Below, in pieces: positions 4,627 to 60,331 of a stretch of DNA of 64,000 nt. A model generated the notes under the pieces. That model was given only the letters and a program-made list of their open reading frames with translations, did no database searches and was not told the origin of the DNA. Source of the stretch: Tetradesmus obliquus (taxonomy: Eukaryota; Chlorophyta; Chlorophyceae; Sphaeropleales; Scenedesmaceae); NCBI GenBank assembly GCA_030272155.1, contig CP126201.1, forward strand, positions 1,470,501 to 1,534,500, given 5' to 3'. Each line of letters opens with the position of its first letter. Positions within the stretch are counted from its first letter, which is position 1. The translations under genes were made by a program, and so were the position numbers.

Positions 4627-7600
4627 TTAAAATGCAGACCATACGAGCAGCCCACGGTATTTGCCGTTGATCGTGCTACTCGCATCGCCGCTGAATCCAT
4701 ACTGAGGTGACCCTGAGACGGTAGAAGCTGCCCGCAGCTGTGCGGCAGCAAGGATAGTTGCCAAGTTGTCTAGGCCAGTCTTGCCGGTGCAAGCGCCAGA
4801 CAGGATGCAGTTTGCAGCGATTGCCGCAACATGCGGCGTGGCCTGGATACGGCAGAGGGTGGAGTACATGAAAGCAGCAGAACAGTTTAGTTGGTGTCTC
4901 TGCATGCGGTTGGCAGTTGTACAGGCATTGCTGGGTTTAGTGGGAATGTGATGCTGTTCTTGAAGCATGGAATCTGCTGCTCAACTTGTATAGCCCTTGG
5001 AATCAGTCAGCAAAGAAACATATTCAGCAGGATCAGCTGCTGCTGCATATTCTAGCTCCATCCACCAGCAAGACAGCCATCTCAGCCATTCAATGTTGCA
5101 CTGCAAACCACATTCCCAGGATGGTGCAGCTCAAAGCAACACAACTTAACAAGAAAGCATGCACATAACAACATAACATAACATAACGTAACATACCTGG
5201 CTGGTTCCTGAGAGCACTCTGTAGCCGGATGCATCCCTTGTGTAAGATGTTGTCGACTTGATGTTGACACCAGGTGCTGCAACCACCCTTGCCTTGTCAG
5301 CATCTGATGAGTCGGCTTGCAGGAAGTTGCTGAAGCTTGCAGGTTCGTTTCCTGCAGGGTCCATGGCCGTCACTGCCACAACAGTGGGGCAAGCAGCAGG
5401 AAAGTACCTGCACAGCACATCACAACAGCACATATGACCGTTTGAGCTGTCAAAATCTTCTAACCTGGTCAGTCAAAGCAACTGCCACTGGAATGTGGGT
5501 GCGAGCATGGAACAACTAATAAAGCAGCACATGCAAGGCATGCTGTGTGCTGCTGTCGTGCTGCCGCCACGCATGTGTTGTTGCATGCCTTACCCGTGCC
5601 GCTAGGGACAGCAACGCAGCTACGTAGCTACGCAGTGATGCAGCTACGTATACGGACTGTTTGGGCTCACCCCTTGATGTCGTCTCCATAGTTCCCTGCA
5701 GCCACAGCTACAAAGATTCCCGCATCGTTGGCGTCCTTCATCACCCCACACACGGCGTCAAACACAGCTTGGTAGTCCTGCAGGCGCAACACAACACAAA
5801 TCAGTTATGGATGGTTTATATTCTGTAAGATATGTTCAGCAACCGCCAATGCCACGCACAGGCTGGAGCTATTCCACACATATCTGTGGCCAGCAGAGCA
5901 CATTACTGAGGGGCCGCCGCCCTTTCCAACTGGGGCGTTGAAAGGTGACTATAGTACGGGCAAAGCACAACTACTCCCTGAAGCAATACGTTACCAACAT
6001 GTTGCAACCCATCATTCAAACTCACCGGGCTGCCGGGGTTTACGTAGGCTGCCAGGCTGAGGTTTATCACTCTTATGCCCTGAGCCAAGCCCTCTGCCAT
6101 GACCCACTGCACCGCAGCCAGCATGTTTGACATTGCGCCCCTGCCTTTCGCATCCAGGATCTTCAGGGAAAACACTGGCGTGCCGGGGGAGATGCCCACG
6201 ACGGATTCAACGGCTGGGTCTGCGTTGCTGTTGAGCGCGGTGATGATGCCTGCGACGTGTGTGCCTGCAGGGAGGTACGAAACGCAGCAGAAGGTCATAA
6301 GGATTAGAAGCAACGGCTGGGTCTTTGATGCTGTTGAGCGCGGTGATGATGCCTGCAATGTGTGTGCCTGCAGGGAGGTGAGAAGATGCGGAGAGGAGCA
6401 TATGATGGTTTTAGTAAGGCGCAGACGACAATGCGGTTCTGAGCAGTCAAGGGGGAAGTAACCATTGTCACAAACGTTGGAAGCATGTAGTAATGCCACC
6501 GCTGCTGCATGCTGCAATGACGTGCGATTTGTGCGTGCCCGCACGGAGTTTGCAGCGTGAACAGTGGTGGTAAAGGAGGCAGGCAGCAGATGGCAATGTG
6601 GCGCTCAGAAGCATGGGAGAAGAAGGAGGCTGTGATGCAAAGGAGGGAGGGGCTAGCCTATGTGAGGGTTAACGCGTCTGTCATGGCCTCACGGTGCGGC
6701 AGGAGGAAGGCATGCACATGCAACAGCGCACAGCACACGCCCCCAAGGTCCAAAGTGTGACACCAGCTGTCGCTAAATGTTCAAATGTAAAAGTAACAAC
6801 CGTGACAGCTCACCATGGCCGTATGCATCCATGTCAGGCGCATCCTCAGCGCCAGTTGAAGCATTGGCATCCAGCCAGGACCTTCCCCCTGCATATGTCA
6901 TATCCGGATGCGTTGCCTCCACCCCTGAATCGATAACACCAACCACCACCTGCTGCCCTGTGGGAAGTCCTGCAGTGCTCGCAACGCCTTCTGCTGTAAC
7001 TGCCTCAATCCGTGACAGCCCTGCAGGAACTTGCTCGCCTGCTGCCACCGGCACACGCGGCAGCCGAGGCCCGGAATATGCAGTGGGAGCTGCAGGGTTT
7101 GAGCTAGGGCTTGGGCTCGGGCTGGGCTCTAGGGTTTGGGGGTCGGGGTTTGGCGACGGCTGGGGTTTAGGGTCCTGTGGCGGTTTAGGGTCTGCGCAGA
7201 GGATGGCTGAGGGCACCGGCTCGGCCTTGCCAGGTGGCACGCCGCAGGACCCAAAGACGTCATTTGCGAAGCGCTGAAACCTGTCGACGCCGTTTGAACC
7301 TAAACCTGAACCCTGGCTGCTTGCAGGAACAGGGTTTAGCACCACGCAGCCGCCAGGCCCTGTTGCGCTGCGCCACTGCACGAATGCATTGTCTGGACCG
7401 CAGCGGATGCCGCTGTAACGCAGCCGGCTGGCAGTACCAGATCCACAATTGATCTCTGAACTGAGCCGCACATCTGCTGTAACAGCAGCAGCAGAATCTG
7501 CAGGGACCGGCAGGCAGCTAGCTGCTGCACTGGCACTGGTAGCACTGCAGGTGGCAGTCGGCAGGTCAGGGGCCCACATTGCGGCAGTGCCGCAGCCGCC

Positions 7601-18481: not shown

Positions 18482-19107
18482 AGATGCAGGGTGATGTTGG
18501 AAGGTCAGATGAGGGTTCTGGTGCAGGTGACAATGCTGCAGCAGCTGGTGCCAGTGACAGTGCAGGCGCTGGCAATGCTGCAGCGCCTGCTGGTGCTGCT
18601 GCTGCTGCTGTTCAAGGGGACCTGCAGCAGCTGCTGCTGTCCTCAGGTATGCCTGATGAGTCAGAAAGTGACATCCTGCCATTTGCAATTGACAGCGAGG
18701 CATGTGCAATGCATGCTGTTGCGATGGGATATGCTCCTCATCTTGGAGCAGCAGCATCTGCAGCAGGCTACAGCCGTGCTGCACCAGCAGGCAGCTACAG
18801 CCAGCAGCAGCAGCAGCAGCAGCACGGCCAGCGCTCAGCTGCGTATGGCATGGCCGGCAGAGCTGCTGCAACAGCAGCAGAGCGGGATGTTGCTGTTGGT
18901 GCCTTTGTGAAGCTTGTGCAAGAGGCTGCAGCTGGGCCCTTCCACCGCACAAAGCAGCAGCAGCAGCAGTGGGCTGCGCAGGGGCCTGCGGCAGAGCAGC
19001 AGCAGCAGCAGCAGCAGCCGCCGCTGCTGGTGGGTGATGCGCTGCAGGAGGTGCAGCAGCTGGCAGCACAATTGCAGGCCCTGGTATTCTCTGGTAGCAG
19101 CAGCTGA
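12550..19107 (+). CDS. ATG13: autophagy-related protein 13 (ATG13)
   Basis: Seven exons: 12550-12681, 12878-12964, 13837-13921, 14181-14299, 14508-14783, 15222-15396, 15617-19107; 1454 residues. ATG13 is the regulatory subunit of the ATG1 kinase complex that starts autophagy. The first 300 residues form the HORMA domain, seen in HYIEECFVKCAQVILGARIF, LEPWRRDVFTPLVIE, GMLLERWSLSY, AAVYKRLILLIRSL, YVRVLPAYRMF, FGITVEYQPA and PRIISDYV. The single last exon encodes a disordered tail of Ala, Gln, Ser and Gly runs with short conserved islands: LVRHSWSSRD, a second RRPSWSSRSSSFD, DILPFAIDSEA and VGAFVKLVQEAA. The tail is much longer than in most ATG13 proteins. Exon 6 could instead start at 15169, adding a Leu-rich segment in frame. 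Echoes of exons 4, 5 and 7 are present. Confidence 0.92.
13337..13412. ncRNA. 35-bp stem hairpin in ATG13 intron 2
   Basis: Arms 13337-13371 and 13378-13412 are complementary at 32 of 35 positions around a 6-base loop. The core GCAGTGTCGCTTGCAGG is perfect. The size and near-perfect pairing fit a small-RNA precursor or the remains of a small inverted-repeat element. No expression evidence is available. Confidence 0.45.
14078..14112 (+). repeat. echo of ATG13 exon 4 start
   Basis: The sequence CTCCTGCAG followed by GCGGTCCACGGGGCATGCTG copies the acceptor and first 35 bases of exon 4 (14181), about 103 bp upstream in intron 3. Confidence 0.85.
14784..14960. other. AT-rich insertion in ATG13 intron 5
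   Basis: This block of about 175 bp is far more AT-rich than anything around it, with runs such as ATTCATTTTCATTCAAATTC. It sits between exon 5 and its echo. No protein family is recognised in either strand. An organelle-derived fragment is possible but not shown. Confidence 0.5.
14996..15051 (+). repeat. echo of ATG13 exon 5 end
   Basis: Copies the last 55 bases of exon 5 with a GTGTGC donor (AATTTGGCATCACTGTGGAG..CACTTCCTGGAG). A small internal deletion shifts the frame, so inclusion would disrupt the protein. Confidence 0.85.
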
Positions 19108-19189
19108 GGGGACCGTCCAGCGCAATGCTGCTGCTGCTGCGGCGGCGGCGGCTGCTTCTACTGCTGCTGCTGCTGCTGCCGCTGTTGCT

Positions 19190-19355
19190 GGCATTGCTCA
19201 GCATAAGCGCAGCTGCAGGCGCTGGTGTTCTCTGGCAGCAGCAGCGGCTGTTTAGTTCACTGCAGCAGGACATAGTGGTGTGCACATCGCCTGCTGAAGC
19301 AGGAGGTGCAGCAGCTGGCAGGGCAGCTGCAAGCGCTGGTGTTCTCCGGCACTGC
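19190..19355 (+). repeat. two echoes of the ATG13 stop-codon end
   Basis: The last coding stretch (ALQEVQQLAAQLQALVFSG, ending at 19107) is repeated as GCTGCAGGCGCTGGTGTTCT at about 19200-19250. It recurs as CAGGAGGTGCAGCAGCTGGC..GTGTTCTCCGGC at about 19302-19352. Both lie past the stop codon. Confidence 0.8.
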
Positions 19356-21344: not shown

Positions 21345-21790
21345 TATCACTACACAGCACAGCATTCACACCACAGTGCAGGGCTTGCTCCAATCCAACC
21401 TGTAGCCCAGTATGCAGCGCACCAGCCATTCCCTGCTGTACAGCAGTACAGTGCCTGTCACACAGCACAGCACTCGCAGCACGGCCTAGCGTGCCCACAT
21501 CTCGATCAACAGCCCCAATATGCTGCGCATCAGCTGAACTCTGCTGTACAGCAGTACACAGCACTACACAGCACAGCACAGCACGCTCACACCACGGCGC
21601 AGGGCTTGCCCCAATCCAGCCGATAGCCCAGTAGGCAGCGCATCAGCCACTCCCTGCTGTACAGCAGTACTGTGTTTTCATCAGCACTGTAAAGCATAGC
21701 ACGCTCACACCACAGTGCAGGGCTCGCCCCAATCAAGGCGATAGCCCAGTATCAGCGCATCAGCCACTCCCTGCTGTACTGCACTACACA
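21345..21790 (-). repeat. echoes of the FHA-BRCT gene's stop-codon end
   Basis: The last 26 codons (YSREWLMRCILGYRLDW and following, 21820-21900) are copied past the stop near 21365-21440, 21590-21665 and 21705-21780. A weaker copy lies near 21505-21550. All are on the minus strand, head to tail and spaced 110-220 bp. Confidence 0.85.
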
Positions 21791-21819
21791 GCACTTCACA
21801 GCACTACACATATTGGTAA

Positions 21820-22007
21820 TCACACCACAGCGCAGGGCTTGCCCCAATCCAAGCGATAGCCCAGTATGCAGCGCATCAGCCACTCCCTGCTGTACAGGCT
21901 AAACCCCGCAGGCAGGCCAGCCTCCCGTGCCCACTGCAGATCTTTCGCAGCAACGCCACTACCATCTGGACCTGTTGACAGCAGCACCAGCAGGTGCTCG
22001 CAGCAGC

Positions 22008-22834: not shown

Positions 22835-22867
<33 letters not shown>

Positions 22868-42052: not shown

Positions 42053-42109
<57 letters not shown>

Positions 42110-44715
42110 TCGCTTGTCCGTGTGTTTCGCAAGTATTCAAGCAGTCCCAAATGCAGCAGTAGCACAGCGTCGAGCTTCTGGGTACTTGGAGTGCACTAGT
42201 GCAGAGTAGTGGGGATGCGTTAAACTTCAGGTTACAGTACGGTCAACATAAACCACCCAGTACTTGCTGCCAATGGCTGCGCTGCCCACGTTTTTCCTGC
42301 GAACTGCTGCTGCACATCTATCTGCAGGGTGCTGATGGTAGCTGATCCCAGCCTGGCGGGCTGACATCTCGCGGCAGTAGTCAAACAAAGTCAAAGTAGT
42401 GACAATGCCCACTGCTGATGCCGTTTCCTGCAAACTGCTGCACATGTGCAGGGTGCTGCTGGTAGCTGACGTCAGCCGGGCTGGCCACCATGTTGCGGCG
42501 ACAGTCAGACAAAGTCAAATTAGTAACAAGGCACCTACATCTCACTGCTGATGTCGTTTCCTGCAAACTGCCGGGATGCCGTTACCTGCAAACTGCAGGG
42601 TGCTGATGGTAGCTGACGTCAGCGCCTGCACCATTGCGCTGCTGCAAGCCACCATGAGCGCCGTCGAGTCAAAATCAAAATAGTGACAGTGCCCACTGCT
42701 GATGCCGACTTCCCGCAAACTGCCGCAAACGTGCAGGGTGCTGATGGTAGCTGATGTCAGCGCCTGCACCGTTGCGCTGCTGCAAGCCACCATGAGCACC
42801 GTCAGAGTGGCAAACGCAGCATTGACATGATATCCTGCCAACCGCTGCATGTTTGCAGGGTGCTGATGGCAGCTGATGTCAGCGCCTGCACCATTGCGCT
42901 GCTGCAAGCCACCATGAGCACCGTCAGAGTGGCAGACGCAGCATTGACATGATGTCCTGCCAACCGCTGCATGTTTGCAGGGTGCTGATGGCAGCTGATG
43001 TCAGCGCCTGCACCATTGCGCTGCTGCAAGCCACCATGAGCACCGTCAGAGTGGCAGACGCAGCATTGACATGATTTCCTGCCAACCGCTGCATGTTTGC
43101 AGGGTGCTGATGGTAGCTGATGTCAGCGCCTGCACCATTGCACTGCTGCAAGCCACAATGAGCGCCGTCAGAGTGGCAGATGCAGCACCTGGAAAGTCCA
43201 TTTTCGACATCTACCTGGGCCCGCAGCACTGGCTATTTAATTTGGGTGTGCTTATCATCGTCTACCAGACCTCTGCGCTGCTGCCGCTGCTGGCAATGGC
43301 GCTAAAAAGGTCAACAGCAGCAGCAGCATCCGGGCCAGGAGTGACAGCAGCAGCAGCAGCAGCAGCGGCGCCAACAGCAGATCACGGCGGTAGCAGAAGC
43401 AGCAGCAGCAGCGAGGAGTCCTATTATTCACACCATCGGCTCGCCCTGTGCCTGCTGAACCGCCTGCTGCGGCTCGTCTACAGCACACTGCAGCTGCTGC
43501 TGCCGAGCGCGACTGGCTACTATGCGCAGGCAATCGCATTGCGCACGCAAGGCTTGCAGCAGCGGCCCATGAAGGCGCTGCTGGTGACTGTGCTGCACCC
43601 GACAGTCTTCTGGATGGCTCAGGTGCGCTGCTGGCGGGCTGAGCAATGTTTCCTGCAAGCTAGGGCATGTTTACTGCAAGTGCATTCAGTCAAATCAATG
43701 AACATGCTTTCATGCTGGCTGGCTACACAGGCTGTCCTGCTAGCAGAGTTGCCTCACATCGCCAAGAGGCCCTTTCTACAAGCATGGATTGTCCTGCAAG
43801 CATCAAGTGTCCTGCAAGCATAGATTGTCCTGCAAAGAAGGTTGCTTGTCTGGCATTGTTGACAGATGCCCTCTGTAGGTACGCTTTCACAGCACAGGCT
43901 GCCCTCAGTGGTGCAAAAGCAGGCTAACGCCTGCACCCAGTTCTCTTGCACATGCACTGTCGGAAATGCACATCAGTCAAACGCAGCTGATCAACTGGTG
44001 CTGTTGTCCGTTTCCTGCTTGCTTCTGCCTGCAGGCCAACTTTGTGCTGCCGTGGCGGTGGGCGCTGCTGATGCAGCTGGTCAACTCCGCAGCAGTGCTT
44101 GGAGCGTGGTCAAGGCAGCTGCCCTGCTGGCTCCAATCATTTCAAATGCAGCCAGAAACCCTAACCCAACCTGAACTCTTCTACCAAGCTCAGGCAACAG
44201 AGGCATGCGAAGTGCTGCAGTACGCAAGCTCCTACATGCGGATGGGATTCGGGGATGCAATGTTTCTGGTGTCAGATCATAGTGTGTGTGAGGGCTTCCA
44301 AGCAGTGCAGGCGCTGCAGGCGTTTGCCACAATAGTGTGCCTGGCGGTGCTGCCGCTGGCTGTTCTGTATGTGTTTGAGTGGCGGTACAAGCTGCAGTTC
44401 CTGCGATCACTGGCACAGGCAGATGCAACAGCAGCAGCAGCAGCTGATTCTACTGCAGCGGCTGACGGAGGCACCAGTGGCAGTGCTGAAAGCGGAAGCA
44501 GCAGCAGCAGCAGCAGCGTATGGCCGGCAGCTGCTGCAGGAGAGAGCAGCAGCAGCAGCGCTGGCTACCCTGCAGGTCTGATGGATGAGCCGCGTGCTGC
44601 TGTGGTGTTGCGGTGGCTGGTGTGTGTTGCCGTGATGCTGGTTGGTGCGTGGCTACTTGCTGAGGTGTTAGTATTAGAAGTATTCAGCAAAACAGCATGT
44701 CCTGCACAGCTCTAA
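41804..44715 (+). CDS. multi-pass membrane protein of unknown family, paralogue A
   Basis: Three exons: 41804-41874, 43103-43622, 44035-44715; 423 residues. I do not recognise the family. Exon 1 reads MNLLLTLQPYSLEQAFWRCK and joins in phase to VLMVADVSACTIALLQATMS. About five hydrophobic stretches look membrane-spanning: HWLFNLGVLIIVYQTSALLP, LLNRLLRLVYSTLQLLL, WALLMQLVNSAAVLGAW, FATIVCLAVLPLAVLYVF and WLVCVAVMLVGAWLLAEVLV. Two loops are filled with Ala/Ser runs. The motif YKLQFLRSLAQAD follows the fourth helix. The model is supported by the near-identical exon layout of paralogue B 5.5 kb away. Intron 1 holds six echoes of the exon 2 start. Confidence 0.75.
42328..43102 (+). repeat. six echoes of membrane-protein A exon 2 start
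   Basis: Copies of TGCAGGGTGCTGATGGTAGC and the following bases occur near 42328, 42449, 42597, 42737, 42858 and 42979, with the real exon at 43103. Units are about 120-145 bp and most end in a TTTCCTGC..GCAG acceptor of the next. The later ones keep VADVSACTIALLQATMSAVR in frame. The first two are degenerate. Paralogue B has no such array. Confidence 0.9.
43640..43850 (+). repeat. TCCTGCAAGCAT minisatellite in intron 2
   Basis: An irregular repeat of TCCTGCAAGCAT with GATTGTCC spacers has about six copies. A similar motif (TTTCCTGCAAGCCAGGGCAT) is duplicated at the same place in paralogue B (48365-48395). Confidence 0.7.
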
Positions 44716-44726
44716 GCTTTGAAGGG

Positions 44727-44764
44727 CTCCTGGCTGGAATCTCTCGTGAGATTCCAGCCAGGAG
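44727..44764. repeat. perfect 17-bp hairpin after the stop of paralogue A
   Basis: CTCCTGGCTGGAATCTC (44727-44743) pairs exactly with 44748-44764 across a 4-base loop, 11 bases past the stop. It would form a stable stem in the 3' untranslated region. Paralogue B has only a short AGGAGCC/GGCTCCT stem at the matching place. Confidence 0.8.
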
Positions 44765-44819
44765 TTGTTGAATGTGCAGTTTGCAGGTTGGTAAGGGATG
44801 CTGAGTTGGAGTTTTCTGT

Positions 44820-44902
44820 GTTGTGGCGATGCTGGTTGGTGCGTGGTTGCTTGCTGGGGTGCCGGTGACAGATGCATTTAGCAGGACAGCATGTCCTGCA
44901 TA
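44820..44902 (+). repeat. echo of the paralogue A stop-codon end
   Basis: TTGTGGCGATGCTGGTTGGT..ACAGCATGTCCTGCATAG repeats the last 27 codons of the gene with changes (MLVGAWLLAGVPVTDAFSRT). It ends in a stop matching paralogue B (CPA then TAG). Confidence 0.85.
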
Positions 44903-45394
44903 GCTGGCAGCCTTTCACTGCCTGCTTGTTCAGTTACCCTCTCCTTTTTTTGTTTGTATATCATCTTGTAGATATGATGACGTGCAGTTCGCGGAGTGCT
45001 TTTTGAACACAAAGTGACTATTGGAGGGCGTTGTGTGCATTTGGTGCACGATGGTGTGTTTTGTGTGTTACTTTCTGCAATGCAGCTCAAGAGTTCGAAT
45101 CTGACATTGCCAAAATTTGAAATCAGCCATGACTCTTACGCCGGAGCAGCAGCCCGCGCCTTGTGTGTATCTTGCCACAATGACAGGATACATTTTTTTG
45201 TTTTGGGGGGGGGGGGTCTCTCGGAACAGCTTTTTTTGTTTACACTAGTCCTACCGTTGTTTAGCATCAACACTGCGTGTGCTGTGACTGACGGCTTTGC
45301 CTGCAAGGCCATATGTCAAGTTACACACACACAGACTTTCCGAGGTGAGTCTCCTTGAGTGACAGCCTGTTTTGCTGAGTCATCTGCGACGTTC

Positions 45395-47438: not shown

Positions 47439-47508
<70 letters not shown>

Positions 47509-49187
47509 GCGCACCCGCAGGTTGGCCTTTTCAAAAGTGTGCAGCCTGTCCTGCAGAGGCACAGAGCCAGGCCAGCTGCCCTGCATAAAATAGAATATTT
47601 CAGTTCCACAGTGGCACCACTAACAGCCCTCTCCCAGGCAAGAGCATCACAAATTGATGAGTTCAAGTTGCAACACAGCCAGACAGCAGCCATAGCAGCT
47701 GCTGCAGCCGAGGTGCTTCTAACAATGCCTCGCCGTGGGGCCCCCATCATAACGCTGCACTCCAGACTAACCAATCTGCTGCTGCCCAGTCGTTTAGGTT
47801 TACGGAAACTCGTGCAAGGCGTCAAAACACTGAACAACAGCTCCACTGCTGACGCTGTTTCCTGCAAACCTGCTGCGCAGGGCGCTGATGCTGGCTGACG
47901 TTTGCGCCTACACCACCGCGCTGCTGCACATGAACATGAGCGTCCTTCGCATGGCGGCAACACAGCCCAGCAAACCCATCTTCAGCATCCACCTGGGATC
48001 CGAGCACTGGCTGTTCAACCTAGGGTTCATCTCCACCATCTACCAGACCTCAGCGCTGCTGCTGCTGCTGGCAATCGCGCTCAGCACATGGACAGCAGCA
48101 GCAGCAGCAGGGCGCAGACGCGAGCCGTTCTACACGCGCCACCGGCACACGCTGTGCCTGATGAGTCGGCTGCTGCGGCTGTTCTACTGCATGGCTCATT
48201 TGCTGCAGCCTGGCGCAATGAGCTTCTTTGCGCACGCAATAGCGGCACGCACACGCGACGTGCAGCAGCGGCCCATGAAAGCACTGCTGGTCAACGTGCT
48301 GCACCCAACAGCTTTCTGGATGGCCCAGGTGCGCTGCTGGCGGGCTGTGCAAGCCAGCGTGTGTTTCCTGCAAGCCAGGGCATGTTTCCTGCAAGTGTGT
48401 ATTGTCAACAGGGAGATCAAGCTTTCATTTCGGCGGGTGCATCAAGTTGTCTCTCTTCAGGCACCCTCACTGCGTACTGGGTGACACTTGATATGCCGCA
48501 TTGCAAAGCTACGCCGCCGCAGTTGAGCCCACGCGCTTCTGCCTTGTACTTCTTTGCATGCAGGCCAACTTCGTACTGCCTTGGCGATGGATGCTGCTGA
48601 TTCAGCTGGTCAACTCCGCAGCAGTACTAGCCTTGTGGTCAAGGCCGCTGCCCTGCTTACTGCAAGCCGTGCAGCTGAAGCCATTCAACGCATCTGAGCT
48701 ATTCTACCAAGCTCAGGCAACAGATGCCTGCAAAGCATTGCAGTACGCAAGCTTTTACATACGGATGTGGATCGGGGACGTTACGTACATGGTGAATGAT
48801 AAACGCATGTGCGAGGGCTTGGGCGCGGTGCAGGCGCTGCAGGCGTTTGCCACTGTAGTGTGCCTGGCGGTGCTGCCGCTGGCTGCCGCATATGCTTTTG
48901 AGCGGAGGTATAAGCTGCAGTTCCTGCGGTCAATGGCACAGGCTGATGCAGCAGCAGCAGCAGCAGCAACCACCGGAGGCTCTACTGCAGCGGCAGGCAG
49001 CGACGCTGCAACCAGAAGCAGCAACAGCAGCGGCAGTGACAGCTACATCACAGGTCTGATGGATGAGCCGGTTGCTGCTGTGGTGTTGCGGTGGCTGGCG
49101 TGTGTTGTGGCGATGCTGCTGTGCGCGTGGCTGCTTGCAGAGGTGTTGGTGACAGAGGCGTTTGGCAGCACAGCATGTCCTGCATAG
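47330..49187 (+). CDS. multi-pass membrane protein of unknown family, paralogue B
   Basis: Three exons: 47330-47400, 47881-48328, 48564-49187; 380 residues, phases as in paralogue A. Exon 1 is almost the same as in A (MNLLLTLQPYSLEQAFWRCK). Hydrophobic stretches are conserved: HWLFNLGFISTIYQTSALLL, SRLLRLFYCMAHLLQPG, WMLLIQLVNSAAVLALW, FATVVCLAVLPLAAAYAF and WLACVVAMLLCAWLLAEVLV. The shorter length comes mainly from the Ala/Ser loops. Intron 1 contains a CAG run (about 47440-47506) and an open stretch at 47520-47840 that is not needed by the model. Function unknown. The pair arose by tandem duplication. Confidence 0.75.
47440..47506 (+). repeat. CAG tract of about 22 units
   Basis: A nearly pure (CAG)n run in intron 1 of paralogue B, flanked by two copies of a GCACCCGCAGGT exon-end motif (47391 and 47511). 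The paralogue A intron has a similar run at 42055-42108. Confidence 0.9.
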
Positions 49188-51089
49188 CTAGGAGCCTTTC
49201 ATTGGCTCCTGGTTAAGTTTCCCTCTCCTTGTTTTTTTTTGTAGACCATCATGAAGATGCTTGCAGAGGTGCTGGTGGCAGAGGCGTTTGGCAGCACAGA
49301 AGCATGTTGTGCTGACGCATGAATAGGGTATGCTGGGTGCTGATGAGCATCAAATAATATTCTAAAATCATTGAAATCTAGCATGTTGGAGGTGTGATTT
49401 ATAGCAATGACTCTGCAGTACTGTATATTAAGGCTGATGATTCAAGGGCGGGTGGTTACTGTCTCTGACCAGTTTTGGTGCTAGAGCTGCGCTGCTTGTT
49501 TGGTGACCAGCTGTGGTCAGTGTTGCCGGCAGCTGCTGCATGCTGAGCTTGACACTGCACAACAGGCGTGTGAGCTGGCTGGGGTAGCAGACATGTGCGC
49601 GGTCGTTGTGTGTCTTTATGTATGCCTTGCTTGCTTTGTTGGTGTATAAAAAGGCATTCGCTCTAGCATCTAAGTGCTCCAAAGCTGCCAGTTGACAGTT
49701 GATGACAACAGCGTTTACAAGGATTGCAGTGCTTTCACTTCACTGATGGTTGGACGCAGTTGACAGCATGCTTTGCACCGCGCAGCAGTGCAGCTTGCAA
49801 GTTTTGCCCTGAGGGTGTGCTGCAAGGAACCACCTCCACATCAGCTGTCAGCACCCCTCAAATTATGCTTGCAGGAAACCTGCGTTGGGCTAACCCTGTG
49901 AGTTGGGAAACTGGAACGATGGAGAAGTGCACTGCATATGGCATAGCGGGCTGTGGGCTTGCAGAGTGTGTACATGAGGGTTGTTATGGCACTGCGGTGA
50001 ATGCGTTGGGGGGGTGGGGGGTCTGCAGAAACTGGTGCTCAAATGCTCCCAGCTGCTTCATCACAAGAGAGCGGTACTGTTCATACACTATGGCGTGTGC
50101 ATGTGGTGTGCACTTGGTGTGCATCTGGCCTACAATGTATCTTCAAGTGTGCTTGCTCACCTCTTCTTGACCGCTGATGTCACGTGTTGACGTGTACAAA
50201 CGGTCGACAACAGCAGTGATCCACGCTTCATCCCATGCCTCACACCTGCTGCTTTTTGGTTGTGAGCAGTGTGCTGTGGAAACTGCAGTTGTGAACTGCA
50301 GTTGTGAGCAGTGTGCTGTGGAAACTGCTTTTTCTCATGCCGTGTTATTTTTGAGGGAGGCTGTGCTGGTGTGCTGTGGTGCTCCAAATGGGCTGTCGCT
50401 TGACCTTGTACAGGCAGGTCTGCACCTGCACGTGCACGTGTCGTGCCTGCTGCAGTAGTGTGGTATGCCCTTTCTGGTGGCACTGCTGCTGCAACTGCTA
50501 TCCGTGATTCTACAAATGATTTTTCTGCCGCAGACTTTCAAGGAAGTAGCACCCACCATCATGAATGATTCAAGCGTTTGCTGCTGACATCGTTAGCAGT
50601 GCTGTTGGTGGCTTGGATCATGGCAAAATGCTGGGTACATGGTACTGTAAAATATCAATCAGTTGTTCTGTTCTTGTATAGTTCTAAGGTCAGAGTAATT
50701 TACGCTGGCAATCAGCGCCGCATGTCGTGCTGCAGGTTGGTGCGCCGGAAAATTGACAGCCGCGACTGCGACCTTGGAAAGAAGCTGCAGGATGCAAATG
50801 AAGACTATTGATGTCAATCTTTCCCCCTTTCATATATGCATCGCAACCACACTCACAAGGGCACAATGCTGCGATGCCGGGCAGTGCGCGACGGGCGTGC
50901 AGGCCCTGCAAGACGGTTGGTGTGTTACACAGCATCTGGCAGCTGCAAGACCCCTCAGCGCAAAGAGCTTCATGTCACAGAGCTCAGCATCACGATGAAA
51001 CTCTCGCCGCTTTCAGCGGCCGAGATTGCAGCCCTGGTGTCTGCTGCTGCTGCTCACGCTGCCCAGCAGTCAAAGCCCCATCACCCCCG
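49188..51089. other. convergent intergenic region between paralogue B and RTF2
   Basis: A short echo of the paralogue B tail (GAGGTGCTGGTGGCAGAGGC..) lies near 49260-49305. A 23-bp direct repeat (GAGCAGTGTGCTGTGGAAAC..) lies at about 50265-50330. A possible terminal exon is listed separately. An open frame at 49724-50170 has no family features. Nothing else is supported. Confidence 0.5.
50736..50811 (+). CDS. possible isolated terminal exon
   Basis: After a TGCTGCAG acceptor the sequence reads LVRRKIDSRDCDLGKKLQD, then ANEDY and TGA. The composition is unlike the repeat-derived frames around it and looks coding. No upstream exon, start or family could be assigned. It may be a gene fragment. 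Confidence 0.2.
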
Positions 51090-51173: not shown

Positions 51174-52586
51174 TACAGCAACCGCAACAGCACACACCGC
51201 GCCACTGCCGCCACCTTCTAGCGCCTCACGCGCACGCTTCCGGTTCTTTCCAGCCTCCTCTGCTGCTCTCACCTCCTTCGCTGCAGCTTTTGCAGCAGCT
51301 TTGGCCTTTAGCTGCTGCCGCACAGCCTCCATATGCTCTGCGTTGCCATTTATCTGCACAACATCTTTTTTGCTGAATGGCTGGCAGCATACTGGGCAGG
51401 TGCTGTCAGCAGCAGATATGGCTGCCAGTGCTTTGTCACTAATAACATGCCCACACTGCTTCAGTGCAGAAAACGGCTGCTTGCTACCACACGGAAGCAG
51501 CGTCACTGGACATACCCACAGCGCTGCGTCTGCTGTGCCTTGCAGCACACGTGCATTGCTGCTGCTGCTGCCGCCATCCTGCAAAGCCTGGCCGCCGCCA
51601 GTGGCCTCCGCACCCTGCTGCTGCTGCTGCTGCTGCTGAAGTTCATGGACGGGCTTGGGTGTGAGGTTCACTGTGAAGACGTCCTTCAAGGACTTCAAGT
51701 GGTCAAAGGTGCCGGCTGCTGCGCGCTGCTGGTTGCTGTAGCGCAGCTGAGCTGACTCGTCACCATCCACAGAGGCACCCCTGCGACACAATGGCGCACA
51801 CACATGCAGATGCGATGATAGGTGTTTAGGTGTGCAAGGCAGCAGCCGTCCAGCGTACCGCTGCCGTAAATGACGTACATCGATATCAACTGACATATAA
51901 GCTTCAACATTGTAATGCTGCTCGCCTTGCTGCTAGCAGCTGTTCAGCAGCGCCGGCCTGTTCAACAGCTGGCCCAGCACCAAACCTTCTAAAAAGTCGG
52001 CAACTAAAATGGATATAAACAATAAGTACTCCACCCAAGTCCTGCTCACCTTGCTGCCAGCAGGTGCTCCAGCACTGCCTGCCTGTTCATGAGCTGCCCC
52101 AGCAGGTCGGCCACAATGGGCGCTGCCAGCGGCAGCCCTGACAGTGCACAGCAGGACCACAGGATCAGCCTGCGGAAAAGATGAAAACAGAAACAACAAA
52201 GAGGCAGCAGCAGCAGCAGTCGTCAAGCCATGCAGATGTGTTGCGCCACCAGGCAGCCCCAAAATCGCACAGCAGGACCAGCTGATTACAGGCAACCGCA
52301 GCAGTGAAACCATGTGTGTTGAGCAGAGCACGATTCGCACTGCCAGCGGCAGAGCTGACAGGGCACAGCAGGACCACAGGATCAGCCTGCAGGGAACAGA
52401 AACAATAAAGAAGCAGCAACATCAGCATCAGTCGTGAAAGAAAGATGCGTGTGTACACTTGGTGTATAAGAAGGAACGTGTCCTGAGGACTACGTGGATG
52501 CGTAATCGCCAGCATTGCGAAACCAGCGGCAGCCCTGACAGTGCACAGCAGGACCACAGGATCATCCCTGCACAGCCATCGCAAGA

Positions 52587-52625
<39 letters not shown>

Positions 52626-53910
52626 TGTCAAATCATACAGATGTTTTGCGCCACCAGCGGCAGCTGCTGTCAAACCAAGCGTACGTGTTGCTCAGTGCAC
52701 ACAGAACGACAGGTGGGGTCCGCCATGGTGTCCGACCCCAATTGCCATCACAATACTCCATAAACTCAAACCAGCAGTTTGCTGGCAAGTCTGAAGCCTC
52801 ATCAGGCTGATTGCACCAAAAACAAACTATGTATGCAGATGCACTGCTGCAGGTGCTGATGATGCATGTGTGCTTCTTCACACGCACCTGCGCATCTGCG
52901 GGTCCAGCGTGCGCTCCTGGTAGGTGTTAGTGACACAGCCGCCACGCGTGCTGCGGGAGCCACCAGGACTGACCACACAATGACCTAGACCAAACCTGCA
53001 TGAACTTGCAGCGGCCCCACTCAGCTGCCCCACACAAAAACCCATTTAAACATCCTGGTGCGTCCCCTGCCATTTGCCCTAGCGCTGAAAATGATGTGTT
53101 TTTCATAAACCGTCTCACACGCACCTGCGCATCTGCGGGTCCAGCGTGCGCTCCTGGTAGGTGTTAGTGACACAGCCGCCACGCGTGCTGCGGGAGCCAC
53201 CAGGACTGACCACACAATGACCTAGACCAAACCTGCATGAACTTGCAGCGGCCCCACTCAGCTGCCCCACACAAAAAGTCATATAAACATCCTGGTGCGT
53301 CCCCTGCCGTTTGCCCTAGCGTTGATGATGATGTGTGTGATAGACTGTTCCCCACCTGCGCATGGCCGGGTCCAGCGTGCGCTCCTGGTAGGTGTTAGTA
53401 ACACAGCCGCCACGTGTGCTGCGGGAGCCGTCAGCCTGAGACAGCCGCCACGACTGGCCACGCAGCACATCGCTGCGCGTCATCTTGGTGCCTGCGGTGA
53501 GTCAACATGGGAAGCAGCAGCAGCACAGAAGTTACAACCGAAATCAGCAGCATCGACAGCACACCGTTGAGGGTCATCTTGGTGCCTGTGATCCAGCAGC
53601 AGCCGCAGCAGCAGCAGCAGCAGCAGCATAAGAGTTGCAGTCAAAATCAGGAGCACCAGCAGCAGCACTAGCAGCACCACCACCACCCCCACCACCAGCA
53701 GCAGCAGCGGACATGTTTAGCACGGGCTCGCATGGTGCAAAGTATGTGACTGCCCTAAAATGCTGCTGGTGCTGTCTCCCAACTCCTGTGCTTGCTGCAG
53801 CTGTTCCGCAATTGCTGTCCTGCAAGCGGATGTGTGCAGGAACGCCCATGCTGCTGCTTGCTGCTGCATGCCAGAGAAGCAACTGCCAACCTACCACCAT
53901 CAAGCCCCAT
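51090..53910 (-). CDS. RTF2: replication termination factor 2 (RTF2)
   Basis: Four exons in transcript order: 53910-53895, 53491-53356, 52169-52050, 51780-51090; 320 residues. RTF2 acts at stalled replication forks and has also been linked to pre-mRNA splicing. The first exon is a 16-base micro-exon (MGLDG plus one base), matching the short Met-Gly start of the family and phase-consistent with GTKMTRSD. Then come the U-box-like half WSCCALSGLPLAAPIVADLL, GQLMNRQAVLEHLL, FDHLKSLKDVFTVNL, and the C2-type RING-like half CPVTLLPCG, LKQCGHVISDKAL, TCPVCCQPF and VVQINGN. A Lys/Ala/Arg helix and Gln-rich tail close it. Every internal junction has echoes. Confidence 0.88.
51928..51975 (-). repeat. 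echo of RTF2 exon 3 end
   Basis: Copies the LGQLLNR..ALL.LL segment with a degenerate donor, about 110 bp downstream of the real exon end at 52050. Confidence 0.7.
52255..52567 (-). repeat. three echoes of RTF2 exon 3 start
   Basis: Copies of the acceptor-side CTGATCCTGTGGTCCTGCTG lie near 52290-52262 (short), 52388-52340 and 52567-52510. They are in intron 2, upstream of the real exon. The last keeps the CALSGLPL coding sense. Confidence 0.85.
52885..53354 (-). repeat. 237-bp tandem duplication carrying two echoes of RTF2 exon 2 end
   Basis: Two nearly identical units (about 52880-53117 and 53118-53354) each hold RGGCVTNTYQERTLDPQMR and a donor copied from exon 2, plus the same intron sequence. 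The near identity implies very recent amplification. Confidence 0.9.
53566..53594 (-). repeat. echo of RTF2 exon 2 start
   Basis: GATCACAG then GCACCAAGATGACCC copies the acceptor and first 15-20 bases of exon 2, about 100 bp upstream. Confidence 0.75.
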
Positions 53911-54344: not shown

Positions 54345-56309
54345 ATGCTTACATTTCGACAATTACAACGTGCAGCAGCTGCTGCAGCGCAGGCAGAGCT
54401 GGCTCTGCTGCGCACCGCTCCTGCACTGCTAGAGGCGTTGTGCCAACACTGGCACTGCCTTGCTGCTGCCGGTGGCAGCTGCAGCACATTCAGCAGCTGC
54501 TCTGCAGCAACTCCTCATCATGTGATGCCTGCTATCTACAGCAGCAGCAGCAGTAGCAGCAGCAGCAGCAGATGGATGGCTAGCAGCAGCACATGCAGCC
54601 CAAACCCTAGCCTGCAGCTGCAGGCCGCTAGCAGCTACTTGCAGTGCCGCGGGTTGAGCAGCAGCAGCAGCAGCAACAACGCTTCCTCCACAGATCCGGG
54701 TATCATCGACAGCACCTACTTTCCAGGTCCCAATGAGCACGAGCAGCAGCAGCAGGAGTGGCAGCAGCAGCGGCAGGATGCGCACAGGCGGGGCTTTGGG
54801 GCCAAGGTGGCACTGCCTTCCACAGATGTGCTGCATGAGGTGCTGGTAGGGCACGCTGCAACCATCAAGCTACGAGCATACCATATAGGTGCGTGTGCGA
54901 TGTTGATGGGACGGATTCACAAGAGCAGTGGTGTAATGCTTCTGCTCAGGTTGCGTTGATCGATGCCTTCACAATCCACCCAGACCCAGTGCAAGATACA
55001 ACGTAGCTCACTGTCCATCGCCCGATGCTTTGACATATGTCAGGCCCATCTGCTGCTGTTTCAAACTTCAAACTGCTGCTGCCACCGCTTCCTGCAGGTG
55101 CCCGCATCCACATCGGACAAGTGTTGCGCCGCGCACAGCTGCAGGGCTGCAGAACGCTCTCAGGAAAGGACTACTGCATCATATGGCCGCCAGAAAAGCC
55201 CGCCGCCGCTGCTGCTGCTGCTGCTGCCAGCCGCCGGCGGCAGCGCTCTGAAGACAGCACGAGTGAGCTGGAGCGAATGTGGAGCCAATTCAACAACAGC
55301 AGCAGCAGCAGTGAGGTTCATGCCCACGATGCTCGGCAGCTGCAGCACAAGTATCAGTTCTTCAATCAGATGGCATCCGCGCTGAAGGACAAGGTCCGAT
55401 TTGACAGGCAGCACATCCTGCAGTGGATGCAGCAGCGGCAGGATGCTGCAGTGCGCCGGCGAGGCTCACCAAGGGGTGGTGCGCCTGAGGTAGTTACACT
55501 GGATGCATGGAAGAGGCGCAGCAGCGAAGCAGCACAGCAGGTGAGATCATGTTTGCTGGCATAACATTGGTGGATATGTTTTGGAACAAACACTTGTGAC
55601 GGCTGGCCTTGTTGCATTATGACGCAAAATAAGCAGTGGCATGCGGCATTTGGTGTCAGGTGTCAGGTGTATTCCAGGTCGAGCCATTGCTGGCGGTATA
55701 CCGTGGGGTGGTACCACTAGATGCGTGGAAGAGGTGCAGCAGCGAAGCACTGCAGCAGGTGCGCTGGCTTCATAAGTTGCAGCCTTACATAAGGATGTTG
55801 CATCATGTGGCATGTACCGCTGGATGCTTGAAAGAGGCGCAGCACCGAAGCAATGCAGCAGGTGCGCTGGCTGACAAATGTGTGGCTGGCTGTTGTATCG
55901 CTGTACTTCTGTACTGCTGCAGGTCAAGCCCCTGCTGGTGCTGTTTTGTGTGGGCATGCAGCAGCAGCAGCCGCAGCAGGATCCCGACATCACTGCTGTA
56001 TTGCTGTTCTGCTGTACTGTGTATGTGCAGGTGCAGCCGCTGGTGGTGTACTACTGTGTGGGCTCTGTTGTACTGCTGGGCACGCAGCAGCAGCAGGAGC
56101 CTGACATAATCACTGCACTTCTGTACTGCTGTACTGCTGCAGGTGCAGCCGCTGCTGGTGGTGTACCGTGTGGGCTCTGTTGTACTGCTTGGCACGCAGC
56201 AGCAGCATGAGCCTGCCATGATTGAGGCCTTTGTGCCACTTGCAGTGCGCTACAAGGCTGGAGGGGACAGTGCATGGACACGCGCATGTGAGCGGCAGCA
56301 CTAACTGCA

Positions 56310-56340
<31 letters not shown>

Positions 56341-59300
56341 GGTGATGTGGAATAGCCGGTGCATGCATTGTCATAGCCGTCAGTGGGCTACACGGCTGGA
56401 GGAACAGCGCATGGACACGCGCATGTGAGCGGCAGCAGCAGCAGCCGCAGGACAGCGAATAGTTGCAGATGTATGCATTGCTACAGCCGTCAGCGCTACA
56501 AGGCTGGAACTTTGCACTGCTATTGTGTTCGCTTGAATGATACACCTGTTGCTGCTGCCGCTGCTGCTCCTGTGCTAAACCTGTTTCGTGTTCATGTGTG
56601 TTCTGTCTATCTTCTTCGCAGACCGTGCGCAGCAGCCGCGCAGCCCTGCTGAGGAGCACACCGTGAAGGTGAACCCAGGCCAGCAGCAGCCGGCAGTCAA
56701 GGGCACCGACCAGGTGAGGGGATTGGCAGCTGGTTGAGACTGCAGCGACAGGTGTATAACAGCAAAGGGGCACAGCGCCAGCAGCAGAGAGAGGTGCACT
56801 AGCGACAATAAGCAGCAGCGAGAGGTGCACTCAGTCAGTAGGCTAGCGACAACAAGCAGACCAAGTCTGCAACTGCGTGGCAGTTGCGCTGCTGGATGTG
56901 GTGCGCTTGAACTGCCGCATTCTGATGACAGTAGGCTGATGAAACACGTGCCGTGCAGGCGATGCTGGCCGTGCTGGAAGTAGGTGGTGTGCGCATCAAC
57001 ATCTACAGAGGCATGCATGTTTGAACCCTTCAATCTAGCTTCATGTAAGAGCTGTCACGTGTGTGTGGTGCGTGCCATTGTTGTTGTTTTTGTGTTGCAG
57101 GTGATGCTGGCGGTGCTGGATGTGGGCGGGGTGCGCGTCATCACATCCGTGCTGGCGCAGTCTGCGGCCCTCAAGTTCTACGAAACGTGAGTACAGCAAG
57201 CAGCAGCAGCTGTGCTTTGTATATGCCGCCGTATGTGCAGCAGTGTGTGGTGCAGAACATTGCGCGAGGCGGCAGCTGCCTGGCATGTGGTAGCTGCTGC
57301 GCCATGCTGTTTGTTAGACCAGCAGGAGTGTGAGGTATGTAATGACCAATCCATGGTGTGGTCCTTCAGCAGCCCACAGTGCAGCCTTGAATTGCACCTT
57401 GCCCTGCTGTGCATTCTTGCCGTTTGCACATGCCGTTGCAGGTCTGTGGAGCATGCGCTAGCGCGCCTGGCAGCCTACTGCGCCATGGTGCGATCCTTCA
57501 GCAAGGTGCAGTTATAACAAGCAACCCCAATGCAAATCTGCAACATTGCCAGTGTATCTTGCCGCAGGTCTGTGGAGCAGGCGCTAGATTGCCTGGCAGC
57601 CTATTGGGCCATGATGCGCTCCTTCAGCAAGGTGCATCCCCAGTCGAACCCTCCATCACCACTTTCTCCGTTGTCGCAGGTCTGTGGAACAGGCGCTTGA
57701 TCGCCTGGCAGCCTATCGGGCCATGGTGCGCTCCTTCAGCAAGGTGTGCCCCCAAACACAATCCTGCATCATCGCTATGTCTTCCCTTCCGCAGGTCTGT
57801 GGAGCAGGCGCTTGATCGCCTTGCAGCCTACCGGGCCATGATGCGCTCCTTCAGCAAGGTACATCCCCAGTCTAACCCTCCATCACCACTTTCTCCATTG
57901 CCGAGGTCTGTGGAGCAGGCACTGGATCGCCTGGCAGCCTATAGGGCCATGGTGCGCTCCTTCAGCAAGGTGCATTCCCAATTCAGCCCTCCATCACCAC
58001 TTTCTCCATTGCTGCAGGTCTGTGGAGCAGGCACTGGATCGCCTGGCAGCCTACCACGCCATGGGGCACACACATCCTGAAACACTCAGTACACATAATA
58101 CAGACTGCATTTCGCCACTTGCTGAAATCATGCAGGTCTGTGGAGCAGGCGCTAGACAGGTTTGCAGCCTACCGGGCCATGGTGCGCTCCTGCCGCAGAC
58201 CACACTGAGCGCTGCATCACCATCTTGCACATCTCTGGCTCCATGCCCCTGCAGGTCTGTGGAGCAGGCGCTAGACAGGTTGGCAGCGTACCGCGCCATG
58301 GTGCGCTCCTTCAGCAAGGTGGATTACCAGTCTAACCGTCCATCATCACTCCATCGCCGCAGGTCTGTGGAGCAAGCACTAGACAGGCTGGCAGCGCACT
58401 GGGCCATGGTGCGCTCCTTCAGCAAGGTGCATCCCCAATTCAGCCCTCCATCATCACTTTCATTAATGTCGCAGGTCTGTGGAGCAGGCGCTAGACAGGC
58501 TGGCAGCGTACAGGGCCATGGTGCGCTCCTTCAGCAAGGTGCAGCACTCCAGCTGGGCAGCACGCGCAGTGGCAGCACTCATCCCTTTTTCCTGGCTGGG
58601 GGAGCAGGAGCGGACGTTCTTCAAGGTGTGACAGCTGTGATTTTGAACATGAATTTGAACCTAAATCAACTACAATATGACATGAATTGTGGGTTAGGGT
58701 GTTGTCTGGCATGCAGCTTTTGGCTGACGCACTGATCCCCTTCTCCTGGCTGAAGGAGCAGGAGCAAAGGTTCTTTGGGGTACAACGGCTGTGACTTTGT
58801 ACCATCAATTGTAACATGTGGCATGTTAGTGAAAATGTTGGGCCGTTGCTGCGTCAGCTCTGGTCATCAGTGAGGCGCAGGTCAACATCAAATAGCTGAG
58901 CCCGCCTGGGACCGTGCGGCCCCGCCGAACCTGTGCCGCTGATACTGCTTCTGCTGCTGCACCTGCTGCTGATGCCTTTCACTTTGATACAGGTCGTCGC
59001 TGCATCAGCTTTGGTCATCAGTGAAGCTCGTGCCCTGCTTGAGATGGCTGAGCCCGCCTGGGACTACGCGGCGTACCACAGCATATGGGCCATTGCGGCC
59101 GAGGACTGCGAACTCGAGGCGCGCCTGAAGGCGCTGGAGGTCAAGGTGGGCTGTCAGGGCTCCAGCTGGCTTTTGTGGCTGGGTTTTAGGTTTGTGGCTG
59201 GGTTGAGACATGTAGCTGACTATGAGGCCTACCGCAGCATCTGGCTCGGCATGACGTTGAGGATCAAAATCAAATTGATTAGCAGCAACACCAAATGTAC

Positions 59301-59403: not shown

Positions 59404-59435
<32 letters not shown>

Positions 59436-60331
59436 ACACCAGGCCTCTGCTCCCCTGCTGCAGCACGCCAAATCGAGAATAAAGGCCAAGCACCACGACA
59501 AGGACAACTTATCATTGCACATATATTGCGCCAACTCACATGACATTTGCACTGCCTCGACCTGTCACAGTGTCTGTGGGTCTGCAGCTGCGCCAAGACG
59601 AGAAGGAGGCCAAGCACGACGTCAAAGACCGTGCCAAGACGTCATGGACGTCGACACGCTGCACTGCAGGGCTCTGCACTGATTGTGCCATACATTTCCC
59701 CGCTGGCCTTGTGTGTCTGCTGCAGCTGCGGCAGGTGGAAAAAGAGGCCAAGCACGACGTCAAGGACAGAGCAGGCCGGCGCTACTACCGGCTGGAGCAG
59801 TACGTCATTGTGCTGCTGGTGGTGTCATGCATGCTGGCAGCACTGGAGGTGGCCAAGAAGGCGCTGAGCCAGCAGCAGCGACAGCAGCAGCAGGCTCTGG
59901 ATGCTGGCAGCAGCAGCAGCAGCGGCGGCGGCGGCGAGGCATTCGCTGACAGCAGCGGCGCTTTGTTGACTGGCTCTATTGATGATGGGACAGATCTGCT
60001 GGGTAGCAGCAGCTATGAGGCAGTTGCTGTTGCAGAAGCACAAGCAGATGTAGCGGCAGGTGCAGCAGATTCTGCAGCGGATTTGGTAAATGAAGTAGCC
60101 GCAGCTGTTGGTGAGGCTGATCAGGGTTGGAGTGAAGCGCAGCAGGACTTGCTGGGTGATGATGAGCAGCAGCAGCAGCAGCAGCAGCAAGATGAGTCGG
60201 AGGCAGCTGAGGGTGTGGATGGCAGCAGCAGCAGTGATGATGAGGAGGCAGCAGCTTGTGCTGATGCCGGCAGCAGCAGCAGCAGCAGCCCCAGGGCAGG
60301 CAGATCGTGGTGGCGGGTGTGGCAGCGATGA
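54345..60331 (+). CDS. RMD1/RMND1 family protein (DUF155), probably organellar
   Basis: Eight exons: 54345-54888, 55098-55540, 56143-56287, 56622-56713, 57101-57186, 58475-58625, 58993-59145, 59726-60331; 739 residues. DUF155 proteins include yeast RMD1, mitochondrial RMND1 and plant RETARDED ROOT GROWTH; several support organelle translation. Family features in order: an Ala/Ser/Gln N-terminus that could target an organelle, HEVLVGHAATIKLRAYHIGA (domain start), LLVVYRVGSVVLLG, EEHTVKVNP, VITSVLAQSAALKFYETSVE, AALIPFSWLGEQ, PAWDYAAYHSIW, EDCELEARLKALEVK, and the C-terminal membrane anchor RLEQYVIVLLVVSCMLAALE. An acidic Gln/Ser tail of about 130 residues follows the anchor. The choice of the last of ten exon 6 copies is a judgement. 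Almost every exon has echoes. Confidence 0.82.
55708..55861 (+). repeat. two echoes of RMD1-like exon 2 end
   Basis: Copies of the LDAWKRRSSEAAQQ end with its GTGCGC/GTGAGA-type donor lie at about 55712-55757 and 55812-55860, downstream of the real exon end at 55540. Confidence 0.85.
55922..56140 (+). repeat. two echoes of RMD1-like exon 3 start
   Basis: Acceptor-side copies begin at 55922 (VKPLLVLFCVG, degenerate) and 56032 (VQPLVVYYCVGSVVLLGTQQ). Both are upstream of the real exon at 56143, with a unit of about 110 bp. A fainter one lies near 55678. Confidence 0.85.
56377..56428 (+). repeat. echo of RMD1-like exon 3 end
   Basis: GGGCTACACGGCTGGAGGAA..GACACGCGCAT plus GTGAGC donor copies the end of exon 3 (56235-56287), about 140 bp downstream. 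A shorter trace lies near 56488. Confidence 0.8.
56957..56999 (+). repeat. echo of RMD1-like exon 5 start
   Basis: GTGCAGGCGATGCTGGCCGT..GGTGTGCGCATCA copies the acceptor and about 40 bases of exon 5 (57101), 143 bp upstream. Confidence 0.85.
57442..58427 (+). repeat. nine extra copies of RMD1-like exon 6
   Basis: Exon-like segments of 64 nt begin at 57442, 57568, 57680, 57795, 57906, 58018, 58136, 58255 and 58363, before the tenth at 58475. Consensus: SVEQALDRLAAYRAMVRSFS plus K. Seven of the nine keep both an acceptor AG and an AAG/GTGCAT-like donor; those at 58018 and 58136 have lost the donor end. Each starts in phase 2 and ends in phase 0, so only one can be used per transcript without a frameshift. 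Spacing is 106-126 bp. Confidence 0.92.
58717..58779 (+). repeat. echo of the second half of RMD1-like exon 6, possible alternative exon
   Basis: After a GGCATGCAG acceptor, 63 nt read LLADALIPFSWLKEQEQRFF plus G and end at a GTACAA donor. It is in phase 0 at both ends, so it could follow any 64-nt upstream copy in place of the longer last copy. Confidence 0.75.
58836..58915 (+). repeat. echo of RMD1-like exon 7 start
   Basis: A copy of VAASALVISEA plus a diverged remainder (with an in-frame stop) lies about 150 bp upstream of the real exon (58993). A second trace (DYEAYRSIWLGM) lies at about 59216-59250, downstream. Confidence 0.8.
59334..59640 (+). repeat. three echoes of RMD1-like last exon start
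   Basis: Copies of the LRQVEKEAKHDVKDRA start lie near 59334 (degenerate), 59461 (degenerate) and 59588 (LRQDEKEAKHDVKDRAK, well conserved), with unit about 127-135 bp. All are upstream of the real exon at 59726. Confidence 0.88.

Follow-up and report, generated by a model that had tools for sequence, protein, structure and literature searches.

Background

Tandem exon duplication is the closest described counterpart of the sequences reported here, and passages of two papers show that partial and intronic exon matches are already known in such events (PMC12343006, PMC9013439). According to part of the Exonize paper, more genes have partial, inter-boundary and intronic events than have full-exon events (PMC12343006). 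In this study, a stretch of 64,000 nucleotides from the green alga Tetradesmus obliquus (hereafter the window) and further loci of the same genome were analysed for short partial copies of exons that lie beside the exons themselves. These copies, here termed echoes, span a splice junction or a stop and lie on the intron side or 3′ side of the exon that they copy. Like tandem exon duplication, as the cited parts of those papers present it, echoes are exon-derived sequences that adjoin exons through tandem duplication (PMC12343006, PMC9013439). Unlike it, they are mostly exon edges of 12–81 nt with one junction, a unit near 120 bp and an apparently slower-than-neutral decay; they accompany approximately 9% of predicted junctions and form arrays of up to ten copies.

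Introns can also be gained when an AGGT-bearing segment is duplicated in tandem; a Drosophila paper reportedly treats intron gain, and a rice paper on patch-mediated breaks is said to relate to small tandem duplications. Like a duplicated AGGT-bearing segment, an echo is a duplicated exonic segment within an intron; unlike it, an echo copies a junction together with its splice signal and would lengthen an intron that was already there. Fill-in at induced DNA breaks in cultured cells gives short insertions of <100 bp, as stated in part of one study, and is a route to short head-to-tail duplications (PMC8355091). Clusters of mutually exclusive exons are reported with gene conversion, and their copies give different isoforms (PMC3236188). 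In the open-licence PMC literature, as judged by titles and the start of abstracts, no account of comparable echoes was found, whether for these algae or for other organisms. The copying itself is thus a known kind of event, and the density and slow decay of the echoes are what is unusual.

Materials and methods

The window corresponds to G000:C11:1470501-1534500 (contig CP126201.1) of a 104.7-Mb assembly in 17 contigs (GCA_030272155.1). Six of its genes were named by Pfam, namely, Peptidase_S8 (subtilase), ATG13, BCAS2, IPPT, Rtf2 and Rab3GAP. For comparison, 28 stretches of 10 kb were taken at round coordinates from 14 contigs, and removal of the satellite locus L033 left the 27 loci to which the counts below refer. 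L033, L001 and L002 were excluded ahead of counting, and the kinase loci L023–L026 stood outside the 27 loci. L033 (G000:C14:2300001-2310000) is satellite-like, with repeated pairs recurring at intervals of 1402 bp. The genes of the window are intron-rich, coding repeats are rich in CAG and the sampled stretches had a GC content of 0.54–0.65, as would be expected of a Scenedesmaceae alga; the published GC of 57% and size of close to 100 Mb for T. obliquus agree with this (PMC12571836, PMC5966456). Among the matches listed for a predicted glutamate synthase (L034), one belongs to Sanguina aurantia, an alga (67% over 65%).

Gene models were ab initio predictions, made with no RNA input by a simple trained exon-chaining gene finder. 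Direct-repeat pairs were collected by a strict scan (offset 40–400, simple repeats masked). The null was obtained by shuffling 200-bp blocks among loci and gave 3 pairs without L033 and 49 with it, the latter being read as satellite inflation.

Results

Occurrence at splice junctions

The 27 loci held 119 local direct-repeat pairs, compared with the 3 left after block shuffling, an enrichment over shuffled positions such as the sequence-only reading of the window had named as support. Pair spacings peaked at 100–160, with a second peak at 200–260. Intron-side echoes were found at 46 of 523 predicted junctions and exon-side echoes at 11 (p = 3e-6 for this polarity); the corresponding counts were 29 and 7 for 282 donors, and 17 and 4 for 241 acceptors. 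Control probes scored 2/139 in the exon middle (2 on the opposite side), 5/264 in the intron middle (5) and 1/216 in intergenic DNA (0), and a foreign-locus control gave 0 echoes. Junctions exceeded the intron middle 4.6-fold and the pooled intron-middle and intergenic probes (6/480) 7.0-fold (Fisher p = 1.6e-8). Predicted stops (0/14) and starts (0/12) in the 27 loci had no echo, and one stop-end echo lay outside the gene models (L011 9710).

The window agreed with this pattern. Its self-BLAST gave 87 direct pairs, 73 of them <1.5 kb apart, and the strict scan gave 120 overlapping pairs. Forty pairs were viewed by eye in transcript orientation, a set that excludes the arrays at 21.3–31.7, 42.3–43.2 and 57.4–58.5 kb and pairs beyond the gene list; the majority spanned a junction or a 3′ end. 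The echoes were partial exon copies on the intron or 3′ side, on either strand and in the majority of genes, including the subtilase, ATG13, BCAS2, IPPT, two paralogues at 42–49 kb, Rtf2 and the genes at 54–60 kb; the Rab3GAP gene had no echo among the scanned pairs. The echoes first read from the window were upheld there, on both strands, and were also present in the 27 loci, and one process common to the gene families and strands is supported. A sign independent of the gene finder was seen by eye, without a denominator, in the kinase genes, where at least six adjoining kinase-domain matches overlap by at least 8 profile positions (e.g. C15:1399073 and C15:1399280).

The same reading had placed echoes beside nearly every exon genome-wide, which does not hold at approximately 9% of junctions, clustered by gene. 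High density stood for some genes and failed for the genome at large, 16 of the 27 loci having no echo at predicted junctions; at least four of these (L007, L012, L016 and L020) do hold echoes that the gene models missed. By gene, echoes occurred at 14/34 junctions in the glutamate synthase locus, 7/20 in L029 and 0/40 in L019. Bases in pairs amounted to 11.4% of the window versus 3.5% of the 27 loci, which places the window among the dense regions.

Structure of the copies

Anatomy was studied in 46 clean pairs (32 donor and 14 acceptor) drawn from 62 pairs with one coding copy, 16 of which were left unclassed. Each echo contained 12–81 nt of exon and one junction, and similarity ended 3–12 nt into the intron in 31/46 pairs (full range −8 to 30). 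Over 30 donor pairs, pooled identity was 90% across the final 15 bases of the exon, 83% at +1 to +6, 47% at +7 to +12 and approximately 30% beyond. In 29 single-unit pairs, the spacing was 122 ± 15, composed of an exon part of 37 ± 13 and an intron part of 85 ± 15 (minimum 59). Introns with an echo were longer (median 420, n = 30) than those without (259, n = 337), and echoes were carried by 27/158 introns of at least 300 bp versus 3/209 shorter ones. In L015 (4830-5409), a donor echo (+151) shares one intron with an acceptor echo (−134).

Echo and real copy differed by approximately 9%. An assembly artefact is hardly credible, given this divergence, the unrelated flanks, the obeyed strand polarity and the occurrence on many contigs.

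The abrupt end of homology just inside the intron, together with the strong junction enrichment, would be expected if a splicing- or transcription-linked process put the exon edge and splice site into the adjoining intron. The splice signals also bear on whether direct selection keeps echoes because they are used as alternative or decoy exons or because they regulate splicing. GT was intact in 24/30 donor echoes (one runs past the locus end) and AG in 10/12 acceptor echoes; these dinucleotides were kept no better than the remaining echo sequence. AG occurred at the 5′ boundary of donor-type copies in 18/30 echoes and 18/30 real exons, which disfavours complete mini-exons with their own acceptor. 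A whole-exon copy with both splice sites was absent from the 46 clean echoes and present in arrays such as that at 57442-58538. Most echoes are partial and as such unable to replace the real exon.

Traces of tandem duplication

Flanks were compared in 45 pairs, 4 of which came from the window; some pairs share one real exon and hence are partly non-independent. Flank similarity exceeded all foreign controls on the intron side in 15/45 pairs and on the exon side in 3/45 (Wilcoxon p = 1.7e-5). This asymmetry, with similarity kept on the intron side and nearly absent on the exon side, suggests that echoes are the remains of tandem duplications that crossed a junction, and the sequence-only proposal of tandem duplication with surviving intron-side copies is supported by it and by the polarity. 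The spacer resembled the post-echo intron in 17/45 pairs, as predicted for a tandem copy. Young full-unit copies were also present (L034 2479/2596/2713; window 52878-53429). One third of the pairs retain flank similarity, and for these a tandem origin is evident; it probably applies to the remaining pairs. Splice-precise copying of exon edges alone is disfavoured by the flank asymmetry, and spacer insertion with a long target-site duplication by the similar intron parts. Residual flanks and young copies also speak against a junction-specific process, whole units having been copied in at least some cases.

Full-unit tandem arrays numbered 22 in the 27 loci, and 7 (8 with L020) spanned a junction, compared with 34% expected for random placement. 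The seven full-unit arrays within predicted coding exons (in L006, L011, L012, L014, L027 and L028) had periods of 30, 30, 33, 36, 36, 54 and 57; every one of these is divisible by 3, as expected under a reading-frame filter.

Rate of change

Codon positions were compared in 42 pairs (30 donor and 12 acceptor, one from the kinase locus L023). Mismatches at positions 1, 2 and 3 numbered 33, 39 and 103, with a third-to-other ratio of 2.86 (95% confidence interval 2.17–3.79). Single-change codons comprised 84 synonymous and 52 non-synonymous cases, and all 19 two-change codons were non-synonymous; synonymous codons thus made up 84/155, versus 28% expected for neutral single changes.

Forward simulation was performed for donor-type echoes, with comparable detection and intron parts of at least 59 nt. 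Neutral decay predicted detectable intron flanks in 0.62–0.72 of pairs and a codon-position ratio of 1.45–1.74, compared with the observed 0.33 and 2.86. With the echo changing at 0.5 of the neutral rate, these values were 0.48–0.50 and 2.06–2.27, and at 0.25 they were 0.33–0.35 and 3.2–3.4. Random births followed by slow change of the echo at the latter rate gave a 5.4–6.0-fold junction enrichment, neutral decay gave 1.3–1.5-fold, and 4.6–7.0-fold was observed. Flank decay, codon positions and junction enrichment, fitted by this model, all support echoes that change approximately one quarter as fast as neutral sequence.

Plain neutral tandem duplication and decay, with all else due to detection bias, is the simplest account and shares the supported tandem origin; it misses the flank decay, the codon ratio and the enrichment in simulation, and we consider it distinctly unlikely. 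Since the flank asymmetry is that of tandem remains, and random births with slower loss reproduce the enrichment, priming of duplication at junctions, which the sequence-only reading had suggested, is not needed; the full-unit arrays as a whole lend it no support, but it is possible in view of those with long units. Copying by a junction-specific process is quite unlikely for the same reason, the enrichment arising in simulation without birth bias, even though most long-unit arrays sit at junctions.

A possible trace of recombination between echo and exon was noticed in the glutamate synthase locus (L034, 1445-1854). The first echo there is identical to the real exon over 49 nt, and the introns after both no longer align closely. 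Downstream, the first and second echoes have nearly identical intron units, and their exon parts differ by 5 nt. Our preferred reading of this single case is that the first echo was overwritten by the exon.

A repeated 64-nt exon

The exon present in ten copies at 57442-58538 is where direct function is most plausible. Divergence affects the 3′ part of copy 58018 and the 3′ end of copy 58136. The codon counts excluded copy 58018, and the intron count covered six of the nine introns; pairwise differences were 12.4, 3.2 and 22.9% at positions 1, 2 and 3, and 24.5% in the introns. Variable sites made up 3/21 second positions versus 12/22 third positions (p = 0.01). Two groups are distinguished by synonymous differences, the GATCGCCT type and the GACAGG type, and look as if two lineages were each under peptide constraint. 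The array is comparable to clusters of mutually exclusive exons in having tandem duplicated exons (PMC3236188); unlike in such clusters, 4 of the 10 copies encode exactly the same peptide, and the others differ by a few residues.

Slow decay, the excess of synonymous changes and the codon pattern of this exon are all consistent with functional echoes. Against them, the length of 64 nt is not divisible by 3, and no more than one copy could be used per messenger RNA (mRNA) without a frame shift, and echoes in general have the partial structure and unexceptional splice dinucleotides noted above. Echoes may have a direct function, with the ten-copy exon as the foremost candidate; as the general cause of their persistence, such a function is unlikely.

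Features in the window

The copies located in the window are listed in Table 1. The two paralogous genes (41753-45000 and 47281-49300) are in tandem and approximately 73–83% identical over aligned parts, and the 3′-end copy belonging to the first (44817-44973) also resembles the 3′ end of its paralogue (49101-49258).

Table 1 Exon-derived copies in the window (a slash within a motif marks the junction)
Gene	Feature	Position	Spacing or unit	Strand
Subtilase (Peptidase_S8)	Acceptor and exon start, two copies; CTGCAG/GCACACAC..., junction by eye	6208-6276, 6311-6379	spacing 103	-
ATG13	Exon end copied downstream	14729-14786 and 14998-15051		+
ATG13	Three copies close to the 3′ end	19044-19094, 19206-19245, 19299-19349 (span 19044..19351)		+
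	Final ~78 nt of an open reading frame (ORF) including the stop, copied	21541..21897	spacing 115/233	-
	Array with predicted exon end and donor CTGACAG/GTGAGGC	22405..23504	unit ~140	-
BCAS2	Acceptor and exon start, three copies	33438, 33579, 33719 (span 33438..33782)		-
BCAS2	Exon copy with donor	33966-34034 and 34111-34179	spacing 145	-
BCAS2	Acceptor and exon start, three copies, two encoding NKANDYSAWLAAS	34382, 34517, 34701 (span 34382..34759)		-
BCAS2	Acceptor-type copies	35334..35541	spacing 164	-
BCAS2	Donor-type copies, CAGCAG/GTGAGC	35702..35862	spacing 109-111	-
IPPT	Acceptor and exon start, three copies, with intron similarity too	37692, 37787, 37905 (span 37692..37966)		+
IPPT	88-nt exon end and donor, two copies	39049..39277	spacing 141	+
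IPPT	Three copies	39573, 39673, 39777 (span 39573..39822)		+
First of two paralogous genes	Tandem array carrying TGCAG/GGTGCTGATGG	42293..43187	unit 122-131	+
First paralogous gene	ORF 3′-end copy	44623..44905	spacing 194	+
Second paralogous gene	ORF 3′-end copy	49132..49299	spacing 126	+
Rtf2	Acceptor and exon start, three copies	52112, 52329, 52523 (span 52112..52567)		-
Rtf2	Young 237-bp full-unit tandem copy and third copy (53353-53429); common part is exon and splice sites only	52878..53429		-
Gene at 54-56 kb	Donor-type copies, GCAGCAG/GTGCGCTGG	55711..55872	spacing 103	+
Gene at 54-56 kb	Copy with acceptor	56028..56222	spacing 112	+
	64-nt exon in ten copies, AG/GTCTGTGGAGCAG...AGCAAG/GT	57442..58538		+
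Gene at 57-60 kb	Acceptor-type copies, CTGCAG/CTGCG	59582..59767	spacing 138	+

Discussion

The polarity of echoes and the confinement of homology to exon and splice site are direct observations, and the following mechanism is proposed for them. Short tandem duplications, typically of approximately 120 bp, would arise throughout the genome without any need of a tie to splice sites. Where a unit crosses an exon edge, the extra copy would be tolerated only on the intron or untranslated-region side, the mRNA being kept intact; selection for an intact mRNA would thereby produce the polarity rule. The intron part of the copied unit would then decay past recognition, and the part with the exon edge and splice site would decay approximately four times more slowly than neutral DNA. 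The echo may keep recombining with its exon through conversion and through gain and loss of units, and such recombination would expose harmful changes in the echo to the selection that acts on the exon. Homology does stop where constraint on the real copy stops, at the end of the exon and its splice site. Taken whole, this proposal of random duplication, intron-side survival and slow decay through recombination is, in our judgement, moderately probable. Within it, recombination as the cause of slow decay and the enzymology of duplication are what we infer.

Several points weigh against this proposal. Intron flanks did not exceed all controls in 30/45 pairs. Among arrays with a period of at least 90, 6 (7 with L020) of 9 span junctions, and a birth bias towards junctions is therefore possible. 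A dozen or so pairs read by eye as lying away from junctions have units of approximately 43–93, and one birth process leaves these smaller units unexplained. The clustering of echoes in some genes is likewise not accounted for. The simulation has neither mutation bias at GC-rich third positions nor hypermutable intron repeats, so its rate factor is rough. Direct support for exon-to-echo conversion is limited to the one array in L034, where, given other duplication breakpoints, the second echo could instead be sister to the third. In the absence of selection, conversion would be expected to yield a codon ratio near 1.5–1.7.

A further-reaching view is that echoes are a maintained class, in which recombination lets selection act on non-coding copies; a genome could then carry partial exon copies by the thousand, which would be neither genes nor neutral debris and would promote both the growth of introns and the appearance of new alternative exons. 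We put this forward tentatively and hold it to be doubtful.

For annotation, echoes are a hazard, and the gene finder spliced some of them into the glutamate synthase model. The advantage of long Chlamydomonas introns is stated as unknown in a passage of a Chlamydomonas comparison (PMC8226300), and echoes provide a measurable way in which green-algal introns may grow long. They would also continually supply raw material for alternative exons, and may be a case of untranslated copies that evolve under indirect selection.

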